Assembly (NCBI GenBank): GCA_023129715.1
Contig: JAGMBO010000113.1
Span: 1 to 33,558, forward strand
Reading direction: 5' to 3'
From: Candidatus Eiseniibacteriota bacterium
GTDB lineage: Bacteria > Eisenbacteria > RBG-16-71-46 > CAIMUX01 > WJJG01
DNA length: 33,558 nucleotides
The position numbers and the translations under genes were made by a program. The stretch's first letter is position 1. Every line of letters starts with the position of its first letter. Below are positions 10,844-33,558 of this stretch, piece by piece. The notes under the pieces were generated by a model that saw only the letters and a list, made by a program, of their open reading frames with translations, did no database searches and had not been told where the DNA came from.

Positions 10844-11094
10844 GTCTCCCCCGCCAATCCAATGCATGTTCCACGAGCAGGCTTGAGCGGAGATTGTGCC
10901 CCTTCTCCGGCCACGTGCAAGGGCTGGTCGGCCCCGCCTGACAACAGTCCGTGCTCCGCTCTATGGCGCCACGGCGTGGGTGCGGTACAATGGCGGAATC
11001 GGAGACGCGTGCGACTTCCCTGGCAGATCCAGGGGCCGTCTGATTCCCGGAAGTACGGTGGCATCATGACCCATTCCGAGGGGGGATTGTACGC

Positions 11095-11676
11095 ATGACG
11101 CGCGAGGAACGAAGCGACATGAGCCGCAGCCCTCTGGAGTTGGGCAAGGAGCGCTGCGCGATTGCCTTGCGCAAGGCGCTCGCCGCTACAGGCCGCTACG
11201 CCACGATCCGTGAGGTGGCGACCGCTACGGGAGTCAACTACTCAACGCTCCGCGGCTATTTCCAGGGGCGCCAGCTCCCCAGTGACGAGACTTGGCGCCT
11301 GCTCAGAATGGCCTTGGGAACAGCGAGTTCGGCTCGGCGGCCGTCTGCCGATCAAGCTGCCTCCCCAGCTCGCGCCGAGCGCCGGGGGAGACCAGCGGGA
11401 GGCCAACAGGCCCAGCCGTCTGCTGCGAGCACCCGCAAATCAACCAATGAGCCCTTTGCTCGCGCTCTTGAGATTCGCCAGCAGATCCAGCACCTATCCA
11501 ACCTTCTGGACTTCTTCAAGCGGGGGGCCGCGAGCGACAGGGAGGCCTTGCGACGAGCCATACCGGGGCGCGACATGGGCTATCTGACAAGTCTGCTGCG
11601 CGCGCTCTATGACGAGGACCAGTTCGAGGCGTGGATCTTGTTCAGTGAATACACGATGAACGAGGATGAGCAATGA
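11095..11676 (+). CDS. HTH regulator/adaptor partnered with a GHKL ATPase
   Basis: The product has 193 aa. The start ATG at 11095 is preceded by a GAGGGGGGA ribosome site. 'RYATIREVATATGVNYSTLRGYFQGRQLPSDETWRLLRMALG' (about residues 36-77) is a clear helix-turn-helix of lambda-repressor/XRE type. A disordered Ala/Arg/Gly/Gln linker follows. The C-terminal helical domain (about 125-190) includes 'RALEIRQQIQHLSNLLDFFKRG' and an acidic end. The stop overlaps the next gene's start by 4 nt (ATGA), so the two products are probably made together. No exact family is recognised. Confidence 0.75.
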   Translation: MTREERSDMSRSPLELGKERCAIALRKALAATGRYATIREVATATGVNYSTLRGYFQGRQLPSDETWRLLRMALGTASSARRPSADQAASPARAERRGRPAGGQQAQPSAASTRKSTNEPFARALEIRQQIQHLSNLLDFFKRGAASDREALRRAIPGRDMGYLTSLLRALYDEDQFEAWILFSEYTMNEDEQ

Positions 11677-13370
11677 AGGAACTTGCGATCGGAGATGCCA
11701 AGAACGCCATCTTGATCATCCAGCAGTCGCAAGCAGATCCGCAGAAGGCTCTCGCAGAGCTGGTGGAGAACAGCATCGATGCGGGGGCGAGGCGCATCCG
11801 CATCATCCGGCGCAAGCGCGGGGGCACCGTCGAGCTCATCATCGAGGATGACGGCGAGGGAGTGAAGCCGGGTCCTGACGGAACCCCTGACTTCGAGAGG
11901 ATCGCATGCGGGATTTGTGATTCCTTCAAGCGGCAGCTGGACGCATCCGAGCGACAGAACATCCAGGGTGAGTATGCGATCGGGATGCTCGGCTTTGCGG
12001 CCATCGGCAGCGAACTCGAACTCGTCTCGCGGACGAGTGCCTCGCAGACGCGCGGCATGCGACTCTGGTCGGGCTCCGTCCAGTATGAGACCTTCACGCC
12101 CCGGAGAGAGCTGACCGCCCATGGCACGCGGGCGGTCGTGAAGAAGGTGCATAAGGAGATTCGCAATCGTCTGACCGCAGAGAAGCTGTCCCGGTATCTC
12201 GGGACAGAGCTCCGGGATCGCATCCGGGCAACCAAAGTCCACGTGCGTATCGAGGACAAGCTGGCGAAGGGAAAGACAGTCGACGTATCGCCGCGGGAGT
12301 TCGAGGGAGAAAAACTTACGGGAATCGGTCCCGTTCAGGCAGCAGGCAGCAAGGTGAGATTCGAGCTCTACGTGACCGCTGAGCGTCGTGATGGCCGTGT
12401 GGGTGTCGCCCGTAGAGGGACGCGACTGGTCGATGATGTTTGTCAGCTCGAGGAACTGAACCACGAGCCCTGGGATACGGGCCAGATTCAGGGCCTGATC
12501 CATTTCGACTTGCTGGCAACGGCGCCGGCATCGCGCAAGGGGATCATCCCGGATGCGAGACTCCGAGAGTTCATGAACGCAGTGCGCTACATTGAGGGGT
12601 CGGTGAGCGCTCGTCTGAAGCAGATCGAGAAGGACACGGAGGAAGACCTCGGACGCAGAATGCGGCGGCAGATCCAGGAGGCGTTCGCTTCGGTTCTGGA
12701 TGAACTCACCGAGGAGTATAGCTGGTTCGATGGCGCGAAGGGAGGACCGCTGCCTGGAAGTCGGGGTGGGGGGCCCACCAGGCGGCGAGAAGTGCGTCTG
12801 TCTCGAGGGCCGCTGGCATCCGTTGAGATTGTGCCCAAGCTGGCCCAGCTCGCCCCGGGCGAGGCGAAGCGCTTCACGGCGCGTCCGCTCGATCCCACGG
12901 GGGCCCTCATCCCAACCAAGGTATCGTTCGAGTGGAGGCTGGCGAGCCCCCTGGCGGCGCTAACCACTGATGGTCCCGTGGCCGCGATCAACGCCGGTAG
13001 CGAAGAGGGCGAGGGCGGGCTCTCGGTGACGGCGCGACATGGATCGGCGTCGGCAACGGCAAGCGCCCGCTTTCTCATTCTTCGGATCAAGAAGGTTGCC
13101 CGGGGGCGTGAGCTCCCGTTTCTGGAATACACACACCGCCCCGCGGAGACCTGGCGTTCTCGATGGGTTGCATCCAGGAGTGTGATCGAAGTCAACACCG
13201 GGCATCCCAACTACCTGACGGCGAAGAGGCGCACGCACAAGGGCGTCGTGCGCTACGTCTCCCTCCTGGTGGCGAAGGAGCTTGTGCTACACAACTTCTC
13301 GGGTGTTCAACAGACACTCTTGCTCGAGCGCATGGTGGAGATCATCAGCGCCTTGCAGCAGAAGCTGTGA
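11673..13370 (+). CDS. GHKL (HSP90/MutL/MORC-type) ATPase of unknown role
   Basis: The product has 565 aa. The Bergerat ATP-binding fold is visible: N box 'AELVENSIDAGA' (residues 28-39, with catalytic Glu32 and Asn33), G1 box 'DDGEG' (59-63), and G2 region 'GEYAIGMLGFAAIG' (about 104-117). A middle domain with 'HGTRAVVKKVHKEIRNRL' and 'VARRGTRLVDDV' follows, resembling the S5-like transducer of this class. A Gly/Arg linker and a beta-sandwich-like segment (about 385-465) come next. The unusual C-terminus includes 'VIEVNTGHPNYLTAKRRTHK'. It has no histidine-kinase dimerisation box. Translationally coupled to the HTH gene upstream. The setting among TA and BREX-like genes suggests a defence role, which is inference. 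Confidence 0.82.
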   Translation: MKELAIGDAKNAILIIQQSQADPQKALAELVENSIDAGARRIRIIRRKRGGTVELIIEDDGEGVKPGPDGTPDFERIACGICDSFKRQLDASERQNIQGEYAIGMLGFAAIGSELELVSRTSASQTRGMRLWSGSVQYETFTPRRELTAHGTRAVVKKVHKEIRNRLTAEKLSRYLGTELRDRIRATKVHVRIEDKLAKGKTVDVSPREFEGEKLTGIGPVQAAGSKVRFELYVTAERRDGRVGVARRGTRLVDDVCQLEELNHEPWDTGQIQGLIHFDLLATAPASRKGIIPDARLREFMNAVRYIEGSVSARLKQIEKDTEEDLGRRMRRQIQEAFASVLDELTEEYSWFDGAKGGPLPGSRGGGPTRRREVRLSRGPLASVEIVPKLAQLAPGEAKRFTARPLDPTGALIPTKVSFEWRLASPLAALTTDGPVAAINAGSEEGEGGLSVTARHGSASATASARFLILRIKKVARGRELPFLEYTHRPAETWRSRWVASRSVIEVNTGHPNYLTAKRRTHKGVVRYVSLLVAKELVLHNFSGVQQTLLLERMVEIISALQQKL

Positions 13371-13460
13371 TTGGCACCGGATTCGCTACCCCGCTAGAGG
13401 AACGCGAGAGAGGACCAGCAGGTGCTTGCTGGTTCCGATCGGCTCGTGCACGAGGGCTAT
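13370..13460. repeat. Copy B of the dispersed ~92-bp repeat upstream of the HigBA module
   Basis: It begins on the last base of the GHKL ATPase stop codon. It matches 8069-8160 as described for copy A (38/47, then 15/20). It lies 172 nt before the start of the truncated higB gene. Confidence 0.7.
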
Positions 13461-13508
13461 CCACGAAGGTGGCTGATCTGCGGACGCGAAGCGAGCCCCA
13501 GAACGCGA

Positions 13509-13537
13509 TTGACGACACTGCGCCACTGGCGTATGCT
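13509..13537 (+). promoter_or_regulatory. Promoter of the higB remnant/higA module
   Basis: TTGACG (13509-13514), 17-bp spacer and TATGCT (13532-13537) precede the ATG at 13542 by only 4 nt. There is no Shine-Dalgarno. The layout matches the leaderless promoters of the other TA-like genes in the window. Confidence 0.55.
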
Positions 13538-13541
13538 ACCC

Positions 13542-13661
13542 ATGAGATTCGTAGAGACCACCACGTTCACCCGAGCTGTCCGGGCGCTGATCAGCGACGA
13601 GGACTGCCGAGCGCTGCAGTCCGGCATCCTGAGCCGCTTGGTCCGCAAGGAGCTTCAGTGA
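13542..13661 (+). pseudogene. HigB/RelE-type toxin with internal deletion
   Basis: The frame codes for only 39 aa. The first ~28 residues, 'MRFVETTTFTRAVRALISDE' then 'DCRALQ', match the start of RelE/HigB toxins of the NadS-linked type, normally about 105-120 aa. The last residues 'LSRLVRKELQ' resemble the usual C-terminal helix of the same family ('L-RLV--EL'). The central beta-sheet with the catalytic and RNA-binding residues is absent, without a frameshift. The stop overlaps the antitoxin GTG, as in intact pairs. I infer an in-frame internal deletion that inactivated the toxin. Confidence 0.65.
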
Positions 13662-13948
13662 AGCAGCGCGATTTCAACAAGCTCGCGGCGAGTGTGAAGC
13701 AAGCCGGCAGAATCCGCCGTGGCGAGGCGAAGCCCTCTCGGGCCTTTGTCTTTAGGCCTGCCGATATCAGGGGCATTCGATTGAAGCTGGGCAAGTCGCA
13801 GCCCGAGTTTGCTCTGATGATCGGCGTGAGCGTGGCGACGCTGCGCAACTGGGAGCAGGGTCGCCGGACCCCAGAGGGCCCGGCAATGGCCCTGCTGAAG
13901 GTCGCGGCCAAGAACCCGAAGGCCGTTGCCGCTGCCTTGAGCAAGTAG
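13658..13948 (+). CDS. HigA/NadS-type HTH antitoxin
   Basis: The product has 96 aa from the GTG at 13658, with AAGGAG 6 nt upstream. 'IRGIRLKLGKSQPEFALMIGVSVATLRNWEQGRRTPEGPAMALLKVAAKNP' is a full XRE-type HTH found in antitoxins of the HigA/NadS group (toxin gene first, antitoxin second). It should repress the shared promoter and would have neutralised the toxin. With the upstream toxin core deleted, it is an orphan antitoxin, perhaps kept as a regulator. Confidence 0.88.
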   Translation: MKQRDFNKLAASVKQAGRIRRGEAKPSRAFVFRPADIRGIRLKLGKSQPEFALMIGVSVATLRNWEQGRRTPEGPAMALLKVAAKNPKAVAAALSK

Positions 13949-14071: not shown

Positions 14072-14950
14072 CTACACCAGATGCCTGGCCACTCCAGCCA
14101 CCAGGCCGATGGCGCAATCGAGATCGAACTCGCGAAGGTCGCGATCACGAATGACCGGCCGCAGTCGAGTGTCGAGCTGCTTGTGAAGGGCTGCGAGGCG
14201 TCCGTGACTGAGATCCACAGGCGGGTTGCCCGGGATGGCGAGTTTCTGGCGCACCATTTGGATGAGGGCCCCATCGCTCGGGTCGAGGCCAAGATGCACG
14301 ACGGCGTAGTGCAGGTCGTAGAAGTCGCGGATGGCCACATCCCGGCGGGACAGGGCAGCGCGGAGCTTCTCGGCCATCGCCTCCGCCAGCGAGATGCAGG
14401 TGAAAGGGATATCAGGCAGCATCGGCTGGCCACGGAATGGATCGAGAAGGATCGTTTTGGCCAGCCCCTGGCTTGCCGGAGTCAGGAGTGGTTCGCGCAG
14501 ACTCACTTCAATCAGAATGCTCTCCGGCTCGTCTGTGGCCGGTGATGTGTAGCGCAAGGAACCGATGTACTGCGTTGAGTTGCTCGAACCCGTCAGCCGC
14601 CGCGCGACTCCGAACTCCGGCAGGTGGTCGGCAACGGAAGCGATGGCGTCCTTGACGACTGCGACCGACTGGCGGCGCTGAGCCCGGCCAGCGGTGACAG
14701 CCAGCGGGATGGTGAAGTCCAGATCCTCGCTCAGACGATAGAAACCGCCATGCACCTTGGCGAGGCACGTACCGCCCTTGAAGACAAGATCTTCGCCGGC
14801 GCTGCGGGCCAGATACTCCAGCAGGACCGTGCAGAAGTAGTCTTTCTCGATCAACCGTGCCGAGAAGCCGGTCTGCGCGGCGGTAAATCTCGTCGCCTCG
14901 CGGAAGAGGGCAAGGTCGTCATGCAGCCGGAGTGATGTTGGGTCAGTCAT
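14072..14950 (-). CDS. abiEii: AbiEii-type nucleotidyltransferase toxin (type IV TA, first pair)
   Basis: The product has 292 aa. Motifs of the DUF1814/AbiEii family are present: 'FKGGTCLAK' (57-65), 'LSEDLDF' (73-79), and the downstream 'KLRAALSRRDVAIRDFYDLHYAV' with the K-x-R and RD-FYDL elements. Family members are GTP-binding nucleotidyltransferases that cause reversible growth arrest during phage infection, with no direct contact to the antitoxin. The start overlaps the end of the AbiEi gene by 8 nt. The gene looks complete. Confidence 0.9.
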   Translation of the reverse strand: MTDPTSLRLHDDLALFREATRFTAAQTGFSARLIEKDYFCTVLLEYLARSAGEDLVFKGGTCLAKVHGGFYRLSEDLDFTIPLAVTAGRAQRRQSVAVVKDAIASVADHLPEFGVARRLTGSSNSTQYIGSLRYTSPATDEPESILIEVSLREPLLTPASQGLAKTILLDPFRGQPMLPDIPFTCISLAEAMAEKLRAALSRRDVAIRDFYDLHYAVVHLGLDPSDGALIQMVRQKLAIPGNPPVDLSHGRLAALHKQLDTRLRPVIRDRDLREFDLDCAIGLVAGVARHLV

Positions 14951-15737
14951 TGCGGACCACTCCCCACCGCGTGATAAGGCGGCCCCGTTTGGGGCGGCCG
15001 GGCACCAGAGGGATCTGGCTGGTGGAGGATCTGAGCGCCCGTTCGAGCTTTCGAAGCAACGCTCTTCCCACGCCGAGTTCCTCCAGGATCACACCAATGC
15101 GGCGAGTGGTGCCCTGATTGCCGTACCGGAGGGTGCTGGTGACCAGTTCGGCGCCTTGGACGCGGGCGCCTCTCAGGTCGCCACGAATCCAGTCGTAGGC
15201 GCGCGGCAAGGTGTCGAACCGCGACCAGTCATAGACGGCGTCCATGAGTGTCCGAGCGCGGCAGGAATAAACGAGCGTCCGACCGGCAGGTGGGCGCACG
15301 GTCTCGGTGTCACCGAGGCGCGTCGGGGCGACCTTGATCAGCGCGAGCGCAACTTGGCCAACCGTCCGTTCGCCGGAGATCTGGTCGTTGTAGGCATAAA
15401 CGCGCGAGGGAATCTGCTCGTCGTAGCCGTATCGCTGGAATGCGTTGGGGCCGGTGATCTGGTAGCGAGCCTGCTTGTCGTCCATCAGTGCGTTGAGGGC
15501 GGTGGCTTCGTCCGGCGTCCATACGCCACCTACCGGCAGCCTGGGCGGGACGAGGTAAAGCCCCCGCCGCACTTGGGCAATCAGACCACGGCGAACCATG
15601 CGGCTCAGCAGATCCTGCTCCTGCTTCGGGGTAATCCCCAGCGGATCGCGCAGGGCCCCGCTCCGCAAGAGGCTCAAGCCCCGCATCTGTGCGTAGGCCA
15701 GGAGGGCCGATTCGTACTTCCCGAGGTTGTTTGCCAT
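14943..15737 (-). CDS. abiEi: AbiEi-type antitoxin/autorepressor (first pair)
   Basis: The product has 264 aa. The N-terminal winged helix runs 'YESALLAYAQMRGLSLLRSGALRDPLGITPKQEQDLLSRMVRRGLIAQVRRGLYLVPPRL', the standard AbiEi regulator opening that ends in 'GLY-V'. The AbiEi C-terminal domain follows ('SCRARTLMDAVYDWSRFDTLPRAYDWIRG'). Known AbiEi proteins bind inverted repeats in their own promoter and antagonise AbiEii indirectly. A perfect inverted repeat covers the promoter here (15744-15792). The transcript start should fall at the ATG. Confidence 0.88.
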   Translation of the reverse strand: MANNLGKYESALLAYAQMRGLSLLRSGALRDPLGITPKQEQDLLSRMVRRGLIAQVRRGLYLVPPRLPVGGVWTPDEATALNALMDDKQARYQITGPNAFQRYGYDEQIPSRVYAYNDQISGERTVGQVALALIKVAPTRLGDTETVRPPAGRTLVYSCRARTLMDAVYDWSRFDTLPRAYDWIRGDLRGARVQGAELVTSTLRYGNQGTTRRIGVILEELGVGRALLRKLERALRSSTSQIPLVPGRPKRGRLITRWGVVRND

Positions 15738-22447: not shown

Positions 22448-22872
22448 TTAGGAGAAAACACTTCAATCCCTGCCGTCGGGTCTGAAGCACGCGATACTCC
22501 TCCCGCCAGCGCAGACTGGGTGATGAGACCGGCCGCACGGGCGTGTCGGCCGGCGCCGCGGCGGGGCGTCGAGGCCGAAACTGCCCAGCCCGGCTCAGAT
22601 GGCTGTCCCGCCCAGGGAAGCCTGGCCGACCGGCGGTGCCGAGGGAGGTAGGCGATCTCATCCGGAGAATGTCGTCAGCCAATCCATTAACGTAACTCCG
22701 TTCAAGAAAGCAAGATCCGGGATTCTCTGAGTGACAGCGTGCTCGTCCATGTATTGCTCAATACAGTTCTTGCGAAATGCGACGTTTAGATTTAGATTCG
22801 CAGTGAATCGTATCGCCCGCGACTGAACATGCGAGACGATTCCTGGTTCCTGTAAAGCCATACGTGACATAC
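22448..22872. other. Gene-poor stretch upstream of the second abiE pair; GAATCGT sites
   Basis: No gene here is convincing. GAATCGT occurs at 22805-22811 and 22878-22884 and inverted (ACGATTC) at 22836-22842, around the start of the second AbiEi-like gene, so these are candidate operator sites. The stretch from about 22660 is richer in A+T than its surroundings. A minus frame 22658-22870 is open but unrecognised. Confidence 0.35.
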
Positions 22873-23673
22873 ATGGAGAATCGTATCAGCATGCGTGCTC
22901 GCGAGTACATACAGGATCTGGCCTCGAATGGCTGCCACTACTTCACCACTGCTGACGCTTTCGAGGCAGTCGCGGGCAACCCTCCCGCGGTGCGCGCACA
23001 GCTGCGCCGGCTGAAGCAGCAGGGTCTGATCGCGGAGCCCGCGCGCAGCTTCCACGTCATCGTACCGCCCGAGTACAAGCGTCTGGGCTGCCTGCCCGCC
23101 GACCAGTTCATCGACCATCTCATGCAAGTCTGGGGAGAACCCTACTACGTCGCTCTCCTGAGTGCCGCTGAGAGACACGGCGCCGCGCACCAGCGACCGC
23201 AGGCCACACAGGTGATGGTGCGCAAGAGTCGTCAGATCCTCGAATGCGGACAGATCCGCGTCGAGTTCATCGCCCGGGGTGACCTCGAGAAGATGCCGGT
23301 CACCATGCTCAACACGCCCCGCGGCGTGCTTCGGTATTCGACGCCGGAGGTGACCGCGCTTGAGCTTGTTGGCTACCCTAATCAAGCCGGAGGGTTGGAC
23401 AACGTCGCCACGGTCCTGTCCGATCTCGCCGAGGAGATGGCCGCCGACAAGCTGCTCGAGGCCGCGAGGCTATCTCCCCTGAGCTGGTCGCAGCGCCTGG
23501 GGCATCTCCTGGAGCTGGTCGGGCAAGGAGAGCTCGCTCAAGCGCTTGGACCATACGTGCGGGAGCACGCTCGCAGCTACACGCCGCTGCGTCGTGCCGC
23601 GAGCATCGCGGGCGCGAAGCGCGTTTCGAGCTGGAAGCTCATCGTCAACGTCGAAGTGGAGCCCGAGCAATGA
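22873..23673 (+). CDS. AbiEi-type antitoxin/regulator (second pair)
   Basis: From the ATG at 22873 the product has 266 aa; GTG 22864 and ATG 22891 are alternatives. The winged helix is 'MRAREYIQDLASNGCHYFTTADAFEAVAGNPPAVRAQLRRLKQQGLIAEPARSFHVIVPPEY'. The domain 'VWGEPYYVALLSAAERHGAAHQRPQATQVMV' and 'EVTALELVGYPNQAGGLDNVATVL' identifies the AbiEi family. It belongs to a different subgroup from the 14943-15737 protein. The stop overlaps the nucleotidyltransferase start by 4 nt (ATGA), giving a coupled type IV pair. Confidence 0.87.
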   Translation: MENRISMRAREYIQDLASNGCHYFTTADAFEAVAGNPPAVRAQLRRLKQQGLIAEPARSFHVIVPPEYKRLGCLPADQFIDHLMQVWGEPYYVALLSAAERHGAAHQRPQATQVMVRKSRQILECGQIRVEFIARGDLEKMPVTMLNTPRGVLRYSTPEVTALELVGYPNQAGGLDNVATVLSDLAEEMAADKLLEAARLSPLSWSQRLGHLLELVGQGELAQALGPYVREHARSYTPLRRAASIAGAKRVSSWKLIVNVEVEPEQ

Positions 23674-24494
23674 TCCCCAAGGACAACATCACCGCCTGGC
23701 GAGCGATGGCCCCCTGGCTGCTCGACGCGCACGTCGAGCAGGACCTCGTCATCAGCCGCGCCATCGTCGAACTGTTTCGGGTTCCAGAACTGGCGAGTAG
23801 CCTGGCCTTCCGCGGCGGCACCGCCCTGTACAAACTCTACCTCACGCCGCCGGCCCGGTATTCCGAGGACATCGATCTCGTCCAGGTCCAGCCGGAGCCC
23901 ATCGGCGAGACCCTTGATCGGGCTCGTGCGGTACTGGATCCGTGGCTCGGCATGCCGCGCCGTCAGCTCAAGGAAGGACGGGTCAACCTGACATATCGCT
24001 TCGAGTCTGAGGACGCACCACCGCTCAAGCTACGACTCAAGATCGAGATCAACACCCGCGAGCACTTCACCCAGCTGGGAGTTGCGCACGTGCCCTTCGA
24101 GGTCGAGAACCCCTGGTTCAGCGGGGCCGCGGACGTCGCGACCTACGTACTCGACGAGCTGCTCTCCACCAAGCTCCGAGCGCTCTATCAGCGGAAGAAG
24201 GGACGAGACCTCTTTGACATCTGGCACGCCGTAGACACGGGGCGCGCCAACCCTCCGGTACTCCTCGCCTGCTTTGAGCGCTATTTGATCGAAGAAGGCC
24301 GCACAGTCACCCGGGCACAGTTCGAAGAGAACCTTGCCTGGAAACGCGCGCAGCCCGACTTCCGCGACGACGTGCGGCCGCTCCTGCGACGGGGCCTCTC
24401 CTGGGACTTCGACGTCGCCATGGACACGGTCATCGAAAGCCTGGTGGCTCAACTACCGGGTGACCCTTGGAAAGGCCAGGCAGAGAAGAAGTAG
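23670..24494 (+). CDS. AbiEii-type nucleotidyltransferase toxin (second pair)
   Basis: The product has 274 aa. The family motifs are 'AFRGGTALYKLYL' (Gly49-Gly50-Thr51), 'RYSEDIDLVQ' (Ser65-Glu-Asp-Ile-Asp69), and 'STKLRALYQRKKGRDLFDIWHA' containing K-x-R and RD-FD. This is the DUF1814 nucleotidyltransferase fold, expected to modify RNA and halt growth when active. It is intact. Translationally coupled to its AbiEi partner. Confidence 0.9.
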   Translation: MIPKDNITAWRAMAPWLLDAHVEQDLVISRAIVELFRVPELASSLAFRGGTALYKLYLTPPARYSEDIDLVQVQPEPIGETLDRARAVLDPWLGMPRRQLKEGRVNLTYRFESEDAPPLKLRLKIEINTREHFTQLGVAHVPFEVENPWFSGAADVATYVLDELLSTKLRALYQRKKGRDLFDIWHAVDTGRANPPVLLACFERYLIEEGRTVTRAQFEENLAWKRAQPDFRDDVRPLLRRGLSWDFDVAMDTVIESLVAQLPGDPWKGQAEKK

Positions 24495-24786: not shown

Positions 24787-25581
24787 CTACGCCACAAACA
24801 CCTTCTCATTATGCCAATCGATGAACTCGCGGTCCGGCAGATCTTGCGGCCGATCCGGGAGAATCAGCAGCCGCCGGCCGTGTAGCGGGTAGTACTCGCG
24901 ACCGTTGTGGAACTCCTCCTTGATCCGCTTGCTCACTTCAACGCGATGGTCACGCGTGACGGTGAGATAGCCGCGGTCGAAGAGAATGTGGAGGTCGGAG
25001 CGGAGCAGTAATCCATTGTTCACCCGGTTCGGACCTGACTCGGAGACGGGCTTGATGTGTGCGGCCTGCAAAACGGGCCGGGTCTTCTCTCCGGTGACCG
25101 AACAGCGGCGCTGATAGGCGTCTTCGACGATCAGCCGGAACATGCCCTGGCCTAAGCGCGCCTTGGTCAGGTAGTCCGCCCCATAGCCGGATGGGATCTC
25201 CGCGACCTCTGCCCGGCCGAGCGCCGCGCCTCGGGCGGCCGCCGTCAGTTGAAGCCGCTCGGCGACCTGGGCCCAGAGGCGCTGGCCGATGGGGTCCGCC
25301 GTGTCGTAGGTCTTCCCGGAAACGATGTTCGCCTTCCAGTTCTCGGGAGCGGGGATCCACAGGTCCTTTGGGAAGAAGAAGGGTTCATTCAGGATGATGC
25401 AGCCGATCTCCGGGTCGAAGGCCGAGTCTTTCCGGCGGGCCTGGATGAGGGACCGAACGTCTGCAATGGACGCTGCTCCGTTCTTCTGCCCAAACGTATC
25501 CCAGGCCAGGGTGAGGGGGAGTTGATCCGCCCGCGCGAAGAGGCCGCCACCGACAATGAAGGGGAATGGAAGCCCGTGCCA
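24787..25581 (-). pseudogene. HNH endonuclease lacking its N-terminus
   Basis: The minus frame is open for 264 codons from TAA/TGA stops at 25582-25587 to the stop at 24787. It reads 'FIVGGGLFARADQLPLTLAW', 'DTFGQKNGAASIADVRSLIQ' and 'IGCIILNEPFFFPKDLWIPA'. The HNH core follows: 'QAAHIKPVSESGPNRVNNGL' and 'LLRSDLHILFDRGYLTV', with the H-x3-P, N and DLH-x-LFD residues intact. This is the HNH_2 (pfam13391) endonuclease family. Relatives have about 60 more N-terminal residues before 'F-VG-GFF'; here stops intervene and the upstream DNA is unrelated. No good start codon precedes the conserved part; the first ATG is 25143, which would keep only the HNH domain (118 aa). That short form could still be expressed. 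Confidence 0.65.
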
Positions 25582-25997
25582 TCATTAAGCGGCCTCGGGT
25601 CGAGAATCTTGTCCCCTCGTGACAGTGGTTCCCGCGAGGACGTCGGCAGCGGCGCACTGCATCCCCTCACCGAGCCGCAGAGGTTCCGGGTGAGCGTCAC
25701 TCGATGGCTCCCCCAGACCTGATACCCAGCGGATCGCTGCCCCCGATTGACAATCTCAGCAGTACCCAAGCCCCCCCCGCCGCGCTACAATGTGTCCCAA
25801 TCGGCCCGTGACTGCTAGTGACAGGTAGGACGCCACTTCCGGGTTCGGGGCCCAGCGCTAGCAGCTTCGGCTGGCCGACATCTGATGGGGCTTGCTGGAC
25901 GCCATGCCGCCATCGCGACTGGCGATGCCCGGGCGACCGCATGTGCTCTCAGAGCATTCAGTTGTGGCGGTTTCCTGTTGGGAGAACACGATCCCCG
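25582..25997. other. Region upstream of the helicase gene, no gene supported
   Basis: About 415 bases. TACAAT (25786-25791) could be a -10 box but lacks a good -35; a TTGACA at 25747-25752 is 33 bp away. A run of eight to nine C lies at 25770-25779. Frames extending the helicase upstream (to 25818) do not look conserved. The missing 5' part of the HNH gene is not found here. Confidence 0.35.
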
Positions 25998-28900
25998 ATG
26001 GCCAGACTAGAAGATCTCCAGCCCAACACCACGGTCCGAGGGATCCTGCCCGACGCCCTCGTCACGGTCGTCAACGTCCAGTGGTTCGGGTCCCAAGCCC
26101 TCGAATTGACCTATAAGGACGCATCCGGCCGCCTGGCCAACGAGCTCCTCTACCGCCACGACGAGCCCCGCCTCGAGGTCGTCGAGCAAGGGCGCCCGTG
26201 GAGCTTCGATGGCGACGGGCATCTCTTCCGTCTCGTCTCGGAGGCCCACCGCATCCGCTTAGCTCACCTCTTCGACCCCGTGCTGGCGGTCCACACCTCG
26301 CTGGTCGACCCACTGCCTCACCAGATCACCGCGGTCTACAAGGCGATGCTCCCTCGCCAGCCCCTGCGCTTCCTGCTGGCCGACGACCCCGGGGCGGGGA
26401 AGACCATTATGGCGGGGCTGCTGATCAAGGAGCTGATCGTCCGCGGGGACTTACAGCGCTGTCTGATCGTGTGTCCGGGGAGCCTCGCGGAGCAGTGGCA
26501 GGATGAGCTCCACCACCGCTTCCAGCTTCCCTTTGATATCCTCACCAACGACAAGCTCGAAGCCGCCCGAACGGGGAACTGGTTCCTGGAGAATGATCTC
26601 GTTATCGCGCGGTTGGATAAGCTCTCGCGCAACGAGGACGTACAGGAGAAGCTCAAGGCTCCCGAATGTCGTTGGGATCTAGTCGTCTGCGACGAGGCGC
26701 ACAAGCTCTCGGCGACGTTCTTCGGCGGCGAGATCAAGTACACGAAGCGCCACAAGCTGGGACAGCTACTCGCCACCCTGACCCGTCACTTCTTGCTGAT
26801 GACCGCCACCCCGCACAACGGCAAGGAAGAGGACTTCCAGCTCTTCCTGGCCCTGCTCGATGGCGATCGGTTCGAGGGCCGGTTCCGGGACGGCGTGCAT
26901 CAGGCGGACGCCTCTGATCTGATGCGGCGCATGGTGAAAGAGGGGCTGCGCCGCTTCGACGGGACACCTCTATTCCCCGAGCGCATAGCCTACACGGTGC
27001 CATATCGGCTCTCTGCCCCGGAGGCACGACTCTACAAGGAGGTGACCGATTACGTCCGCGAGGAGTTCAATCGTGCCGACGCGCTGCAGAACGACAAGCG
27101 GGCCGGCACGATCGGCTTCGCTCTTACCATCCTGCAACGTCGCCTGGCCTCCTCGCCGGAGGCCATCTACCAATCCCTCTGCCGGAGGCGTGCGCGATTG
27201 GAGAAGCGCCAACGTGAGATGGAACTACTCCACCGGGGCGCCCAGGCCGAGATCCTGGCGCCCACCGGGCCGATCCTCGACGATGAGGATTTCGAAGATC
27301 TCGACGAGGCTCCGGACAACGAAGTCGAGGGCACCGAGGATGAGATCCTCGATCAGGCCACGGCGGCCCGCACGATCGGGGAGCTGAAGGCGGAGATCGC
27401 GACTCTGGGCCGCCTCGAGAATCTGGCGCTTGCTGTGCGCCGTAGTGGAGAAGACCGGAAGTGGCGCGAGCTAGCGAGTCTCCTGAGTGAGATCTTCACA
27501 CAGGCGGGCATTGAAGGCCGGGTAAGTGAGGGCTCTGCGCCCCATGGATCGGGGACGATTCCTCCGCCGAAACCCTCTCCTCGCCAGAAGCTCGTCATCT
27601 TCACCGAGCACCGCGACACCTTGAGTTACCTCGAGACCCGGATCACGACACTCCTCGGTCGTCGGGATGCCGTGGTTGTGATCCATGGCGGGATGGGGCG
27701 GGAGGAGCGTCTCAAGGCTCAAGAAGCCTTCAAGCACGACCCGGAGGTCCAAGTCCTTGCCGCGACCGATGCTGCCGGAGAGGGGATCAACCTCCAGCGT
27801 GCTCACCTGATGGTCAACTATGACCTGCCCTGGAACCCCAACCGGATCGAGCAGCGCTTCGGTCGTATCCACCGCATCGGACAGACCGAAGTCTGCCACC
27901 TCTGGAATCTCGTCGCCGACGAGACCCGCGAAGGGGATGTCTATCGCAAGCTGCTCGATAAGCTCGAACAGGCAAGGCATTCGCTCGGCGGTCAGGTCTT
28001 TGATGTGCTCGGCAAGCTCCAATTCGAGGGACGTCCCCTGCGGGAGCTGTTGATCCAAGCCATTCGCTATGGCGAGCAACCAGAGGTGCGCGCGCGTCTG
28101 ACACAAGTGGTTGTCGACGCTGTGGATCAGGAACAGATCCGAGAACTTCTCGATGAGCATGCTCTGGCGACCAATGCGATGGATGCGAGCGAAGTCGGCC
28201 AGGTGCGCGAGGAGATGGAACGGGCCGAGGCGCGTCGCCTGCAGCCACACTACATCGAGGAGTTCTTCCACGAGGCCTTCAAGCAGCTTGGGGGCAGCAT
28301 GCGTCAGCGCGAGCCTCGCAGATATGAGATCACGCATGTACCCGCGCCGGTCCGGAATCGGGATCGGTTGATCGGTATCCGAGAGCCCGTTCTCTCTCGG
28401 TACGAGCGAATCACCTTTGAGAAGCCTCTGGTCGCGCCGCCCGGGCAACCGCTCGCAGCCTTCGTCTGTCCGGGGCATCCGTTGCTCGATGCCACACTCG
28501 ATCTGACATTGGAACGGCATCGCGATCTCCTGCGCCGCGGCACAGTCCTGGTCGATATCCGTGATGAGGCAACAGAACCTCGCGCGCTCTTCTACTTGGA
28601 GCATGCGATTCAGGATGCCGGCAGCACGAAGGGGGGAGAGCGACGGACGATTTCGAAGCAGATGCTCTATGTCGAGATCGATCGGGAAGGACGGGCACGA
28701 CACCTCCACTACGCTCCGTATCTCGACTATCGTCCACTCCAGCCCGATGAACCCGAGATGGCTGCCGTGCTGGAGCGTCCCGAGCTGGCGTGGATCACTC
28801 GTGACCTGGAGCAGCAGGCGCTCGCCCACGCGATTGGCACGGTCGTCCCTGAGCATCTCCAGGAAGTCCGGGAGAGGCGGTTGGGTTGGATCGAGAAGAC

Positions 28901-29576
28901 TCGAGCGGCAGTGAAGAGCCGTCTCAGCAAGGAGATCAACTACTGGGACCATCGGGCAGAGCAGCTGAAGCTCCAGGAAGAGGCGGGCAAGTCTCCCGGC
29001 CGGCTGAACTCCCAGGAAGCCCGCCGTCGAGCCGACGAGCTGCAATCCCGGCTGCAGAAGCGCCTGGAGCAGCTCAGTCTGGAGGCTAAGATCTCAGCGC
29101 TTCCGCCCGTCGCACTGGGGGGCGTTGTCGTCGTTCCAATTGGCCTGATCGCGCAAATGGCTGGCCGACCTCCCACAAAGACCTCGCAGACTGTGGACAA
29201 GCAGGCCGTCGCTGCACGTGCCCGAGCCATCGTGATGGAGATCGAGCGCGGTCTCGGCTTCGAGCCCATCGACCGAGAACTGGAGAAGCTCGGCTACGAC
29301 ATCGAGAGCCGCGACCCGCAGTCTGGGAGGCTGCGGTTCATAGAGGTCAAGGGGCGCGACTCAGAGGCGGATACGGTCACAGTAACCAAGAACGAGATCC
29401 TCTATTCGCTCAACAGACCGGACGATTTCATCTTCGCGATCGTTGAGTTCTTGCCGGATAGGAGCCACCAAGTCCACTACCTCCGCCGTCCATTCCAGCG
29501 TGAGCCGGACTTCGGGGTGACGAGTGTGAACTATGATCTCAAGGAGATTCTGGCACGGGCGGAGGCGCCGCGGTGA
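25998..29576 (+). CDS. brxHII: SNF2-type helicase with DUF3883 domain (BrxHII-like)
   Basis: The product has 1192 aa from the ATG at 25998. Q-motif-like 'DPLPHQITAVYKA' (104-116), Walker A 'DDPGAGKT' (129-136), DEAH box at 232-235 ('VVCDEAHKLS') and 'LLMTATPHNGKEEDF' form the first RecA domain. 'LVIFTEHRDTLSYLE', 'ATDAAGEGINLQ' and 'NPNRIEQRFGRIHRIGQ' form the second. The C-terminus has a DUF3883 nuclease-like domain: 'LGFEPIDRELEKLGYDIESRD' to 'LRFIEVKGR' (E-V-K as in PD-(D/E)xK folds). BREX-3 BrxHII and DISARM DrmD share this layout; the neighbouring DUF1156 methylase and brxF fragment favour BrxHII. The stop overlaps the next start by 4 nt (GTGA). Confidence 0.85.
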   Translation: MARLEDLQPNTTVRGILPDALVTVVNVQWFGSQALELTYKDASGRLANELLYRHDEPRLEVVEQGRPWSFDGDGHLFRLVSEAHRIRLAHLFDPVLAVHTSLVDPLPHQITAVYKAMLPRQPLRFLLADDPGAGKTIMAGLLIKELIVRGDLQRCLIVCPGSLAEQWQDELHHRFQLPFDILTNDKLEAARTGNWFLENDLVIARLDKLSRNEDVQEKLKAPECRWDLVVCDEAHKLSATFFGGEIKYTKRHKLGQLLATLTRHFLLMTATPHNGKEEDFQLFLALLDGDRFEGRFRDGVHQADASDLMRRMVKEGLRRFDGTPLFPERIAYTVPYRLSAPEARLYKEVTDYVREEFNRADALQNDKRAGTIGFALTILQRRLASSPEAIYQSLCRRRARLEKRQREMELLHRGAQAEILAPTGPILDDEDFEDLDEAPDNEVEGTEDEILDQATAARTIGELKAEIATLGRLENLALAVRRSGEDRKWRELASLLSEIFTQAGIEGRVSEGSAPHGSGTIPPPKPSPRQKLVIFTEHRDTLSYLETRITTLLGRRDAVVVIHGGMGREERLKAQEAFKHDPEVQVLAATDAAGEGINLQRAHLMVNYDLPWNPNRIEQRFGRIHRIGQTEVCHLWNLVADETREGDVYRKLLDKLEQARHSLGGQVFDVLGKLQFEGRPLRELLIQAIRYGEQPEVRARLTQVVVDAVDQEQIRELLDEHALATNAMDASEVGQVREEMERAEARRLQPHYIEEFFHEAFKQLGGSMRQREPRRYEITHVPAPVRNRDRLIGIREPVLSRYERITFEKPLVAPPGQPLAAFVCPGHPLLDATLDLTLERHRDLLRRGTVLVDIRDEATEPRALFYLEHAIQDAGSTKGGERRTISKQMLYVEIDREGRARHLHYAPYLDYRPLQPDEPEMAAVLERPELAWITRDLEQQALAHAIGTVVPEHLQEVRERRLGWIEKTRAAVKSRLSKEINYWDHRAEQLKLQEEAGKSPGRLNSQEARRRADELQSRLQKRLEQLSLEAKISALPPVALGGVVVVPIGLIAQMAGRPPTKTSQTVDKQAVAARARAIVMEIERGLGFEPIDRELEKLGYDIESRDPQSGRLRFIEVKGRDSEADTVTVTKNEILYSLNRPDDFIFAIVEFLPDRSHQVHYLRRPFQREPDFGVTSVNYDLKEILARAEAPR

Positions 29577-31231
29577 GTGGTTGCGATCAGAAGACGATCC
29601 CCTCCCTAGTTGAGCAGGTCGATGAGTGGCTGGAAGCTCAGGAGGGTGAGCACTTCGAGTTCAAAGAGGCCAGGCGTACCTTTTCATTCGACAAGCTCAC
29701 CCAGTACTGCTGCGCGCTTGCCAACGAAGGGGGTGGCAAGATCATCTTGGGAGTGACTGACCGGCGACCCCGATCCGTCGTTGGAACGAGGGCCTTCCTG
29801 CAGCCAGAAGACACACGCCGTTCCTTGATGCAGCGAATCCCACTTCGGATCCAAGTGCAGGAGATCCAACACCCACAGGGTCGTGTGCTGGCATTCGATG
29901 TTCCGGCGCGTCCAGTGGGAGTTCCTGTCAAGTGGGGCGGAATCTATTGGTCCCGTGAAGCCGATAGCCTTGTCCCCATGAGCGAAGACCGGCTCCGCGC
30001 CGTCTTTGCTGAGTCGGGTCATGACTTCTCAAGCGATATCTGCCCCGCCGCAGAATTCAGGCATCTGGACGAACAGGCCATCGATGAATTTCACCGGCGG
30101 TGGATTGAGAAGTCGAAGAATGATCAACTGGCAACAGTCAGTCACAGTCAGCTTCTGCAAGATGCCGAACTACTGGTAGACGGCAGCATCACCTACGCAG
30201 CTCTGATTCTCTTCGGAACCCAGGCCGCGCTCGGTCGATTCCTTGGTCAATCCGAGGTCGTGTTCGAGTACCGAGCGACAGAGGCGTCGGGACCCGCACA
30301 ACAACGTAGAGAATACCGCCGAGGTTTCTTCTCCTTCTACGATGACCTGTGGAAGCTGATCGAACTTCGCAACGAAACCCAGCACTACCAGGACGGGCTC
30401 TTCGTCTTTGATGTTCCGACATTCGATGAGCGGTCAGTGAGGGAGGCGCTGCTCAATGCGGTTAGCCACCGGGATTATCAGCTGGGGGGGAGTGTTTTCG
30501 TTCGCCAATACGCTCGCCGAGTAATCATCGAGAGCCCTGGAGGATTCCCGGTTGGCATCACGGTGGACAATGTTCTAGACCACCAGTCCCCCCGAAATCG
30601 GAGAATCGCCGAGTCACTTGCCAAGTGTGGCCTGGTCGAACGGTCCGGGCAGGGCATGAATCTCATGTTCGAGCGGAGCATCCGGCATGGGAAAGCCCGC
30701 CCTGACTTCACCGGCACCGATGCCTACCACGTCAGCCTGACCCTGCACGGGGAGGTGCAGGATCCGCGCTTCGTTCAGTTTCTGGAGAAGGTTGGACGAG
30801 AGACTCAGGCATCATTTGGAACGTACGACTTCCTCGTCATGGATCTGGTGCACCGCGAACTCCCTATTCCGCCGGAGCTTACAGGACACCTGCGTCGCCT
30901 GACTGATCTAGGAGCCATCGAGCGACTGGGACGGGGGCGGGGGGTCCGCTATCTGCTGTCGCGTCGTTTCTACGCATTGGCCGGGCGGCGAGGAACCTAC
31001 ACCAGACGGCGCGGCCTGGATGACGAAACCAACAAAGAGCTGCTGCTACGTCACTTACAGGCGAATCCCTCGGGAAGCTCCCTCGCTGTTTTGCATCAGG
31101 TGCTTCCGCACCTTAGCCCACGAAAAGTCCAGGCGCTGCTTCAGGAGCTACGGAGGGAAGGGCGCGCGAACCTGAAGGGTCTCCGTCGCTGGGCCCGGTG
31201 GTATGCGGCTAAGACCGGAGAAACCAGCTGA
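29573..31231 (+). CDS. AlbA_2/Schlafen-like ATP-binding protein (second copy) within the helicase-methylase operon
   Basis: The product has 552 aa from a GTG overlapping the helicase stop. The AlbA_2 domain is 'EHFEFKEARRTFSFDKLTQYCCALANEGGGKIILGVTD' (about 24-61). The ATP-binding HATPase_c_4 part is 'DERSVREALLNAVSHRDYQLGGSVFVRQYARRVIIESPGG' with 'LAKCGLVERSGQGMNLMF'. Winged helices follow, including 'ELTGHLRRLTDLGAIERLGRGRGVRYLL', and a further C-terminal 'HLSPRKVQALLQELRREGRANLKG'. It is longer than the 20396 copy and is translationally coupled to the helicase. Such a gene is not part of the core BREX set, so it may be a sensor, regulator or added effector. Function is not established. Confidence 0.87.
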   Translation: MSGCDQKTIPSLVEQVDEWLEAQEGEHFEFKEARRTFSFDKLTQYCCALANEGGGKIILGVTDRRPRSVVGTRAFLQPEDTRRSLMQRIPLRIQVQEIQHPQGRVLAFDVPARPVGVPVKWGGIYWSREADSLVPMSEDRLRAVFAESGHDFSSDICPAAEFRHLDEQAIDEFHRRWIEKSKNDQLATVSHSQLLQDAELLVDGSITYAALILFGTQAALGRFLGQSEVVFEYRATEASGPAQQRREYRRGFFSFYDDLWKLIELRNETQHYQDGLFVFDVPTFDERSVREALLNAVSHRDYQLGGSVFVRQYARRVIIESPGGFPVGITVDNVLDHQSPRNRRIAESLAKCGLVERSGQGMNLMFERSIRHGKARPDFTGTDAYHVSLTLHGEVQDPRFVQFLEKVGRETQASFGTYDFLVMDLVHRELPIPPELTGHLRRLTDLGAIERLGRGRGVRYLLSRRFYALAGRRGTYTRRRGLDDETNKELLLRHLQANPSGSSLAVLHQVLPHLSPRKVQALLQELRREGRANLKGLRRWARWYAAKTGETS

Positions 31232-31300: not shown

Positions 31301-31401
31301 ACTTAGAACGGTAGTTGAGGTTCATAGGTACTGACAAACCTCGTCTGACCAAGGGTGGGGAGGCCATCGTCCTTGAAGCCGTGCCGGTGCGTGGGGGAGG
31401 C

Positions 31402-33558
31402 ATGAAAGCGAAGAAGAAGCTCATCGAGGTGGCGCTGCCGCTCGATGCGATCAACAAGGCCTCGGCGCGCGAGAAGTCGATCCGGCACGGCCACCCCAGC
31501 ACGCTGCATCTCTGGTGGGCGCGTCGGCCCCTGGCCGCTGCCAGGGCGGTGATCTTTGCCCAGATGGTAGATGACCCCTCAGCTCATACTGATCTCTTCC
31601 CGACGGAGAAGGCACAGGAGAAGGAGCGCAAACGGCTCTTCAAGATCATCGAGGATCTCGTGAAGTGGGAGAACACCACCAACGAGGAGGTGCTCGCGCG
31701 GGCACGGGCCGAGATCTGGCAGAGCTGGCGCGCGACTTGTGCGGAGAACGCCGACCATCCCCGGGCTGCGGAGTTGTTTGACCGCAAGAAGCTCCCCGCC
31801 TTCCACGATCCGTTCGCCGGCGGCGGGGCGCTCCCGCTGGAGGCGCAGCGCTTGGGGCTGGAGGCATACGCTTCCGATCTGAATCCAGTAGCCGTATTGA
31901 TCTGCAAGGCGATGATCGAGATCCCACCCAAGTTCGCCGGGGGGTCGCCGGTCAATCCGGCTACCCGCGGAGACAGATCTCTCATCGACAAGGTGTGGCG
32001 AGGGGCTCAGGGGCTGGCCGAGGACGTGCGCTACTACGGCAAGTGGATGCGGGATGAGGCGGAGAGGCGCATCGGCCACCTCTACCCGAAGATCGAGATC
32101 ACCCCAGAGATTGCGAAGGAGCGACCGGATCTCAAGCCCTACGTTGGTCGCAGACTCACGGTGATTGCGTGGCTGTGGGCCCGGACGGTCAAGAGCCCGA
32201 ACCCTGCCTTCGCGCACGTGGATGTTCCGCTTGCCTCGACGTTCATGCTTTCCACCAAGAAGGGCAAGGAGACTTACGTTGATCCGGTGATCGAGGGCGA
32301 CAACTATAGATTCACGGTGAAGGTGGGGAAGCCGACGGATGCTGAGGCGGCGAAGAGTGGAACCAAGCTCGCGCGCGGCGCGAACTTCAGGTGTTTGATG
32401 TCAGGCGCTCCGATGGCGAGCGACCACATCTACTCGGAGGGCAAAGCTGGGCGCATGGGTGCGCGGCTGATGGCCATCGTGGCTGAAGGGCAGCGGGGAC
32501 GGGTATATCTCGCGCCGACGTTGGAGCACGAGGCGGCGGCGGACAAGGCCAAGCCGGAGTGGAAGCCTGAGATGCCAATGCCCGCGAACCCGCGGTGGTT
32601 TTCGCCGCCCGCCTATGGACTGACGACCTTCGGCGACCTCTTCACCCCCCGCCAGCTTGTGGCTCTGACGACCTTCTCTGATCTTGTGCAGGAGGCGCGA
32701 GAGCTGATCCAGCGTGATGCGCTTGCAGTCGGACCGCCCGACGACCGCAAGCCGCTGCGCGAAGGGGGCGCTGGTGCCGCTGCCTACGCGGAGGCGGTCG
32801 TGGTGTACTTAGCTTTTGCGCTCAGCAAGCAGGCCGACCTGGGCAACAGCCTCTGCCGCTGGGAGCCGATCGCGCAGTGCCCGCGACAGCTTTTTGGTCG
32901 CCAGGCTATCCCAATGGTCTGGGACTACGCCGAGGGGAATCCGCTTGGCGACAGGTCAGGAGCGTGGGCGGTTCTCGTGGAGGGCATTGTTAGGGCGTTT
33001 TCGAAAGCGTTTGAGTTCATTGCATCGAGCGCACCGGGTGCTGCGCAGCAAGCTGACGCTGGGACGCAAAGCGTGTCTTCCGACAAGCTGGTCTCTACGG
33101 ACCCCCCATACTACGACAACATCGGCTACGCTGACCTATCGGACTTCTTCTATGTCTGGCTGCGTCGCTCGCTGAGGCCTGGCTTTCCTGACCTCTTTGC
33201 GACGCTCGCGGTTCCGAAGGCCGAAGAGCTAGTAGCCACGCCCTATCGACATGGCAGCAAAGACAAAGCGGAGGCCTTCTTCCTCGAGGGAATGACCCAG
33301 GCGATGCACCGCTTCGCCGAGCAGGTGCACCCGGCCTTCCCTGTCACCATCTACTACGCCTTTAAGCAGTCTGAAAGCGAGAGTGATGAAGGTATTGCGA
33401 GCACCGGCTGGGAGACCTTTCTCGCCGCGGTGATCAGGGCCGGTTTCACTGTCAGCGGCACCTGGCCGTTACGCACGGAGAACAGAAGCCGCATGATCGG
33501 GCAAGGCACCAACGCCCTCGCTTCCAGCATCGTTCTAGCCCGGATAATTCATGATTCT
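31402..33558 (+). CDS. pglXI: DUF1156 adenine-specific DNA methyltransferase (PglXI-like), partial
   Basis: The frame is open from ATG 31402 (GGGGGAGG just upstream) to the window edge, 719 codons. It starts '[20 protein letters not shown]' then '[20 protein letters not shown]', the DUF1156 signature. The SAM-binding motif is '[18 protein letters not shown]' (135-152). The catalytic motif is '[20 protein letters not shown]' with Asp567. The zinc-ribbon position near 332-340 reads 'CLMSGAP', so the CxxC pair seen in many relatives is incomplete. COG1743 enzymes of this kind serve as PglXI in BREX type 3, methylating adenine in a host motif so that self DNA is recognised. The end lies outside the window. 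Confidence 0.88.

Follow-up and report, generated by a model that had tools for sequence, protein, structure and literature searches.

A conserved HTH–GHKL ATPase gene pair in a bacterial defence island: a possible variant of the MORC/paraMORC-like ATPases

Two overlapping genes of Candidatus Eiseniibacteriota bacterium, encoding a helix-turn-helix (HTH) protein and a GHKL ATPase, form a conserved unit that lies in a defence island. Our best reading of the pair is that it represents a variant, not seen before, of the defence-associated GHKL (MORC/paraMORC-like) ATPases, the comparison with paraMORC being made by architecture and published description. The stretch of DNA analysed (the window) is the entire contig C17 of a 4.8-Mb genome bin that is 96% complete, and comprises 33,558 bases.

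Structure and distribution of the gene pair

The HTH gene (11095-11676, plus strand, 193 aa) and the ATPase gene (11673-13370, plus strand, 565 aa) both start with ATG, and the stop of the first overlaps the start of the second by 4 nt in the tetranucleotide ATGA (11673-11676), so that the overlap named in the original prediction is confirmed in the sequence together with both reading frames. A Shine-Dalgarno-like purine-rich stretch, GAGGGGGG (11078..11085, plus strand), is found 9 nt 5' of the HTH start. We also considered an inverted repeat (GTACAAT/ATTGTAC) 5' of the HTH gene, but rejected it as its arms are about 100 nt apart and it is absent from the other pair loci; the count of the motif GCGTACAAT in the window is no higher than in shuffled sequence.

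With gene order and strand unchanged, the pair recurs at two loci of a genome from the same family as the window's bin (G010; ATPase identities of 79% and 78%) and at one locus of a genome from the same order (G006; 46%), these representing two related genera. The HTH stop overlaps the ATPase start by 4 nt in G010 and by about 29 nt in G006 if a GTG start is used there. A fourth genome (G009) contains the end of an ATPase gene only, at a contig edge, with 66% identity over 134 aa, and the pair is known from three genomes of one phylum. When an HTH profile was run against 385 genomes, strong matches were obtained in G000, G010 and G006 only, namely at the pair loci and additionally at the end of contig C213 of G010; the continuation of C213 is probably contig C17 of that genome, which carries the remaining half of this HTH gene. 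Four pairs are accordingly counted including that of the window, one of them with its HTH gene split across two contigs. Upstream of the related HTH gene on C213 (L049, 3-3015) we observed a gene for an FGE-sulfatase-type protein, small ORFs and a reverse transcriptase, an arrangement that looks like a diversity-generating retroelement.

Both genes of the pair are under purifying selection (dN/dS between window and G010 of 0.13 for the ATPase and 0.25 for the HTH gene), and change is faster in the HTH protein than in the ATPase, also between the G010 copies on C158 and C17 (0.51 for the HTH part, 0.07 for the ATPase).

The ATPase family as a whole is patchily distributed (5 of the 47 genomes of the phylum, 9 of 385 in the wide sample). 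Relatives without an HTH gene, found in other lineages by profile searches, outnumber the HTH-paired ones and fall into a form with a long N-terminus (G015, G010:C284, G525, G526 and a truncated copy in G245) and a second form (G361, G413-G415 and an interrupted copy in G164). The Ig-like domain described below is missing from a remote relative in G171, which nevertheless aligns almost end to end (hhalign 98.9%, E=3e-17) and shares the C-terminal domain in the alignment; its motif II is degenerate (L062, 2651-4201, minus strand). In the phylogenetic tree the paired ATPases stand apart from the solo forms with modest support, in a topology whose root is not fixed and whose G171 branch is too long to be placed. 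No relative of the ATPase was found in the plasmid and phage records searched, and the viral contigs searched yielded no true relative, two loci matching over motif I only. Such absence from the phage, plasmid and viral contigs searched is unusual for a mobile defence system and counts against a defence reading.

Domain architecture of the two proteins

The ATPase matches the Pfam family HATPase_c_3 (E=7e-11, 42.7 bits against a cut-off of 25) and was modelled with AlphaFold2 from a nine-row alignment (mean pLDDT 79), domain bounds being taken from the secondary structure of the model. Pfam, alignment, model and profile agree on an N-terminal GHKL (Bergerat) ATP-binding domain (residues 1-160; 11673..12152, plus strand) with motif I E29-L-V-E-N33-S-x-D-A, motif II D59-x-G-x-G63, motif III G99-x(3)-I103-G104-x-L106-x-F108 and motif IV T152. 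The claim that all Bergerat-fold motifs are present holds, with E29, N33, D59, G61, G63 and G104 invariant in the family alignment, and so does the claim that kinase features are lacking, as the HisKA, HEF_HK and STAS families were not reported in the Pfam scan.

This domain is followed by an Hsp90/MutL-type middle (S5-like) domain, assigned by Foldseek to Hsp90 (residues 165-290; 12165..12542, plus strand), that ends in an R288-x-G loop invariant across the family alignment; R288 may have a role in completing the ATP site. The AlphaFold2 model continues with a long helix (residues 295-344; 12555..12704, plus strand) and an Ig-like beta-sandwich (residues 383-469; 12819..13079, plus strand), the latter also giving a weak profile match to the Leptospira Ig-like protein LigA (E=0.001). 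The alignment finally shows a conserved C-terminal domain (residues 483-565; 13119..13367, plus strand) with the family pattern WRSR...N.GH...RY..LL.AKE; all ten family members that cover it share, without exception, W494, R495, S496, R497, N508, G510, H511, R527, Y528 and K535. The C-terminus VIEVNTGHPNYL, singled out earlier as unusual, belongs to this family-conserved domain.

The original prediction had proposed a mutant of Glu32 as a test of the ATPase, and here it was wrong. Glu29 is invariant in 9/9 family members and aligns with the position of the catalytic base of MutL, so that the GHKL catalytic base predicted from the alignment is Glu29, not Glu32. The proper target for mutation would be E29 rather than E32, because the latter is replaced by Gln in two members.

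Comparison of the ATPase model by Foldseek placed the N-terminal and middle domains of Hsp90 first (E=1.6e-12, 9-15% identity), with phage RIIA among the viral fold matches, and the sequence profile matched MutL (1e-6), Hsp90 and MORC2. Fold and profile both give a MutL/Hsp90/MORC type, in line with the MutL/MORC-like kind of protein raised as one possibility from the sequence.

The partner matches HTH_3 in Pfam with an E-value of 7e-5, about at to just above the cut-off, and its HTH domain (residues 18-76; 11146..11322, plus strand) is followed by a C-terminal helical domain (residues 119-185; 11449..11649, plus strand) that in the alignment of pair loci carries the conserved pattern PG..xGYL..LL.ALYDED..EA...FS. 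The structure model is all-helical but poor (pLDDT 45), and a fold search with it gave no match below E=1. The description of the partner as an HTH protein with a helical C-terminal domain is supported by the Pfam match and by the helices of this low-confidence model.

All matches of the two proteins to NCBIfam were far below cut-off, and the PADLOC hits were limited to MzaB (12 bits) and mad1 (18 bits), both rejected as identities since they match over short stretches only. In PHROGs the weak matches comprised phage regulators as well as families whose function is unknown. Neither a nuclease domain nor a toxin domain was recognised in either gene.

Genomic setting of the pair and of its relatives

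The window is a defence island. It holds two AbiEi/AbiEii toxin-antitoxin pairs (14072-15737, minus strand, and 22864-24494, plus strand), two AlbA_2 genes, DUF4143-type ATPases and an Hma defence system with the helicase HmaA (25818-29576; PADLOC 1693 bits) and the methylase HmaB (31315-33558; 1243 bits, cut by the contig end), one of the AlbA_2 genes (29573-31231) lying between them. Directly beyond the pair, at 13422-13948 on the plus strand, a truncated toxin-like ORF (HigB-like by eye) precedes an intact HTH antitoxin-like gene with a Pfam HTH_3 and a weak MqsA match. The cluster of toxin-antitoxin (TA) and defence genes noted earlier around the pair is hence borne out. More than ten TA/defence-type genes in the 33.6-kb window compare with one tblastn-matched helicase in 189 kb from 20 other contigs of this genome, a comparison that favours the window by construction because the queries were mostly the window's own proteins.

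The majority of loci with readable flanks likewise lie among defence or TA genes. An HNH gene is located 3' of both pair copies in G010, and contig C17 of that genome additionally encodes a PLD-like protein and a helicase with PADLOC hits. We rejected the HNH gene as a third component, since it adjoins only the two G010 copies, belongs to a family found independently in 9 of the 47 genomes of the phylum and occurs elsewhere in the window as a 5'-truncated copy (residues 50-309; 24790-25569, minus strand). An upstream DUF4143 ATPase was rejected as well, since its strand and its spacing differ in the window and it is not seen in G006.

In G006 the HTH start lies within a 4-nt overlap with a gene for a 90-aa protein (L013, 1049-1321), and nuo genes follow 3' of the pair on the opposite strand, in convergent orientation. 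Plasmid relatives of this small gene (L095-L100; a family of 75-90 aa) precede genes for large proteins of which several are GHKL-like, a call that relies mostly on motifs seen by eye: one such protein matched HATPase_c_3 below cut-off (E=0.001), and in another hhalign found motif I only. Genes for Dcm, Vsr, AlwI (type II), MutH/Sau3AI or Shedu lie near several of these plasmid loci, whereas at one locus there are none.

Among the ATPase relatives without HTH gene, that of G414 follows an ERCC4 nuclease gene at a spacing of 44 nt, and the remote one of G171 precedes a type IIG restriction-methylase gene (2e-205) by 28 nt; the solo relative of G361 is found beside clpB/crp, and others near an NtrC-type regulator and ordinary genes. 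The expected co-occurrence of the pair near defence genes stands as far as the pair is a conserved unit with mostly defence or TA flanks; it does not extend to the whole family, whose ATPases also stand alone and in part in ordinary contexts.

Relation to known systems and possible mode of action

The names MORC and paraMORC have already been given to GHKL ATPases adjoining restriction-modification (R-M) genes, HNH genes being among the neighbours of paraMORC1 (Iyer, Abhiman and Aravind 2008, PMC2292703). The idea of an undescribed module survives in so far as the pair fits no nameable system, none having been matched in Pfam, NCBIfam or PADLOC; the kind of protein, however, is not altogether new. 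Similar to these proteins, the ATPase combines a GHKL and an S5-type domain with a C-terminal extension (PMC2292703), and several of its relatives are found near nucleases or R-M genes (HNH in G010, type IIG in G171, ERCC4 in G414). It differs in its Ig-like domain, the WRSR...N.GH C-terminal domain and the HTH partner gene, and the pair itself is without a linked methylase or helicase operon. The hallmark of MORC, a GhXhhpXXRhl motif in the S5 domain (PMC2292703), is absent by eye from the ATPase, the equivalent strand reading VGVARRGTRLV with different spacing. ParaMORC1-5 consist of GHKL and a C-terminal S5 domain and are located in R-M operons (PMC2292703); judged by this description the architecture fits, and an R-M neighbour is seen only at the remote relative.

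Other characterised systems resemble the pair in part. VcSduA (GHKL-Shedu) is a proven defence protein in which the E27A exchange shows that an ATPase residue is needed for defence, and it shares with our protein the GHKL ATPase and a clamp-like middle domain (PMC12137116), but it possesses its own C-terminal DUF4263 nuclease (Shedu type I-D), for which the ATPase gave no match. The HEF_HK/Response_reg_2 proteins also combine a HATPase_c_3 protein with a tightly linked small partner near R-M genes (PMC8011034), whereas the partner here is an HTH protein; PF19191 (HEF_HK) and PF19192 (Response_reg_2) are not among the Pfam matches up to E=1. Phage RIIA and Hsp90/MutL share the fold of the N-terminal and middle domains, but with about 9-16% identity in the fold matches, and the C-terminal half of the ATPase is unlike theirs.

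We tentatively favour a two-gene, defence-associated GHKL (MORC/paraMORC-like) module in which an ATP-gated clamp is aimed or controlled by the HTH partner, and we infer the dimer clamp, the docking of the HTH protein, DNA as the client and the defence role, the last being a reasonable guess from context. ATP binding would dimerise the ATPase, with E29 as base, N33 contacting Mg/ATP and R288, contributed by the Hsp90-like middle domain, as the residue that completes the site; the dimer would close as a clamp whose client-binding arm might be formed by the long helix, the Ig-like and the C-terminal domains. The HTH protein would bind DNA and use its conserved helical C-terminal domain to dock on the ATPase, and could then load the clamp on DNA and/or make its own operon responsive to the clamp. 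Because neither gene has a recognised nuclease, the pair would most likely silence or remodel DNA, or switch a different defence component, and not do the cutting itself.

A bolder version, which we regard as improbable, would be a defence system not yet described, of two genes (three in G006) and without a recognised nuclease, in which incoming DNA is silenced by a MORC/Hsp90-type clamp that the HTH protein places on it and the Ig-like and WRSR...N.GH domains serve as recognition arm. It is similarly doubtful that the ATPase is a general Hsp90-like chaperone or remodelling enzyme with the HTH protein as local regulator, its defence setting reflecting hitch-hiking in a plastic island. The top fold matches to Hsp90, the solo relatives beside clpB/crp and NtrC-type regulator genes and the absence from the plasmids and phages searched are all consistent with a chaperone, but the patchiness noted above is unlike that of a housekeeping gene, and the association with nuclease or R-M genes in G010, G414 and G171, and via the small gene in G006, argues against it. 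The leading position of the HTH gene, the 4-nt overlap, the surrounding TA genes and the faster evolution of the HTH protein would also suit a toxin-antitoxin-like pair of an autorepressing antitoxin and an ATPase acting as conditional toxin or abortive-infection effector; this too seems unlikely to us, as no toxin domain was recognised and ATPase relatives occur without HTH gene (G015, G361, G413, G525), which would hardly be possible for a free toxin. Least probable is regulation in the manner of CapK/CapS, for which an HTH and a GHKL protein have been reported together upstream of immune operons (PMC13373217). Signal sensing by the GHKL protein would then decide whether the HTH repressor binds DNA, and the repressor would govern a neighbouring operon. 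The two-gene unit beside defence genes is similar, but CapK/CapS involves a SpoIIAB-like kinase with STAS domains, whereas the pair has an Hsp90/MutL-type ATPase with an E29 base and gave no STAS match in either protein, its downstream genes differ (HNH in G010, convergent nuo in G006, the truncated toxin-like ORF in the window), and no operator-like repeat common to the pair loci was found.

Bacterial MORC-like ATPases have been proposed as relatives of the MORC proteins that silence genes in eukaryotes, and how the bacterial proteins act is poorly understood (PMC8011034). Compact, equipped with a DNA-binding partner of its own and lacking any recognised nuclease, the favoured HTH–GHKL module would make it simple to ask whether such clamps alone can act on foreign DNA, and the C-terminal domain of the ATPase, together with the small gene preceding GHKL-like proteins, may serve as handles for locating further such systems.
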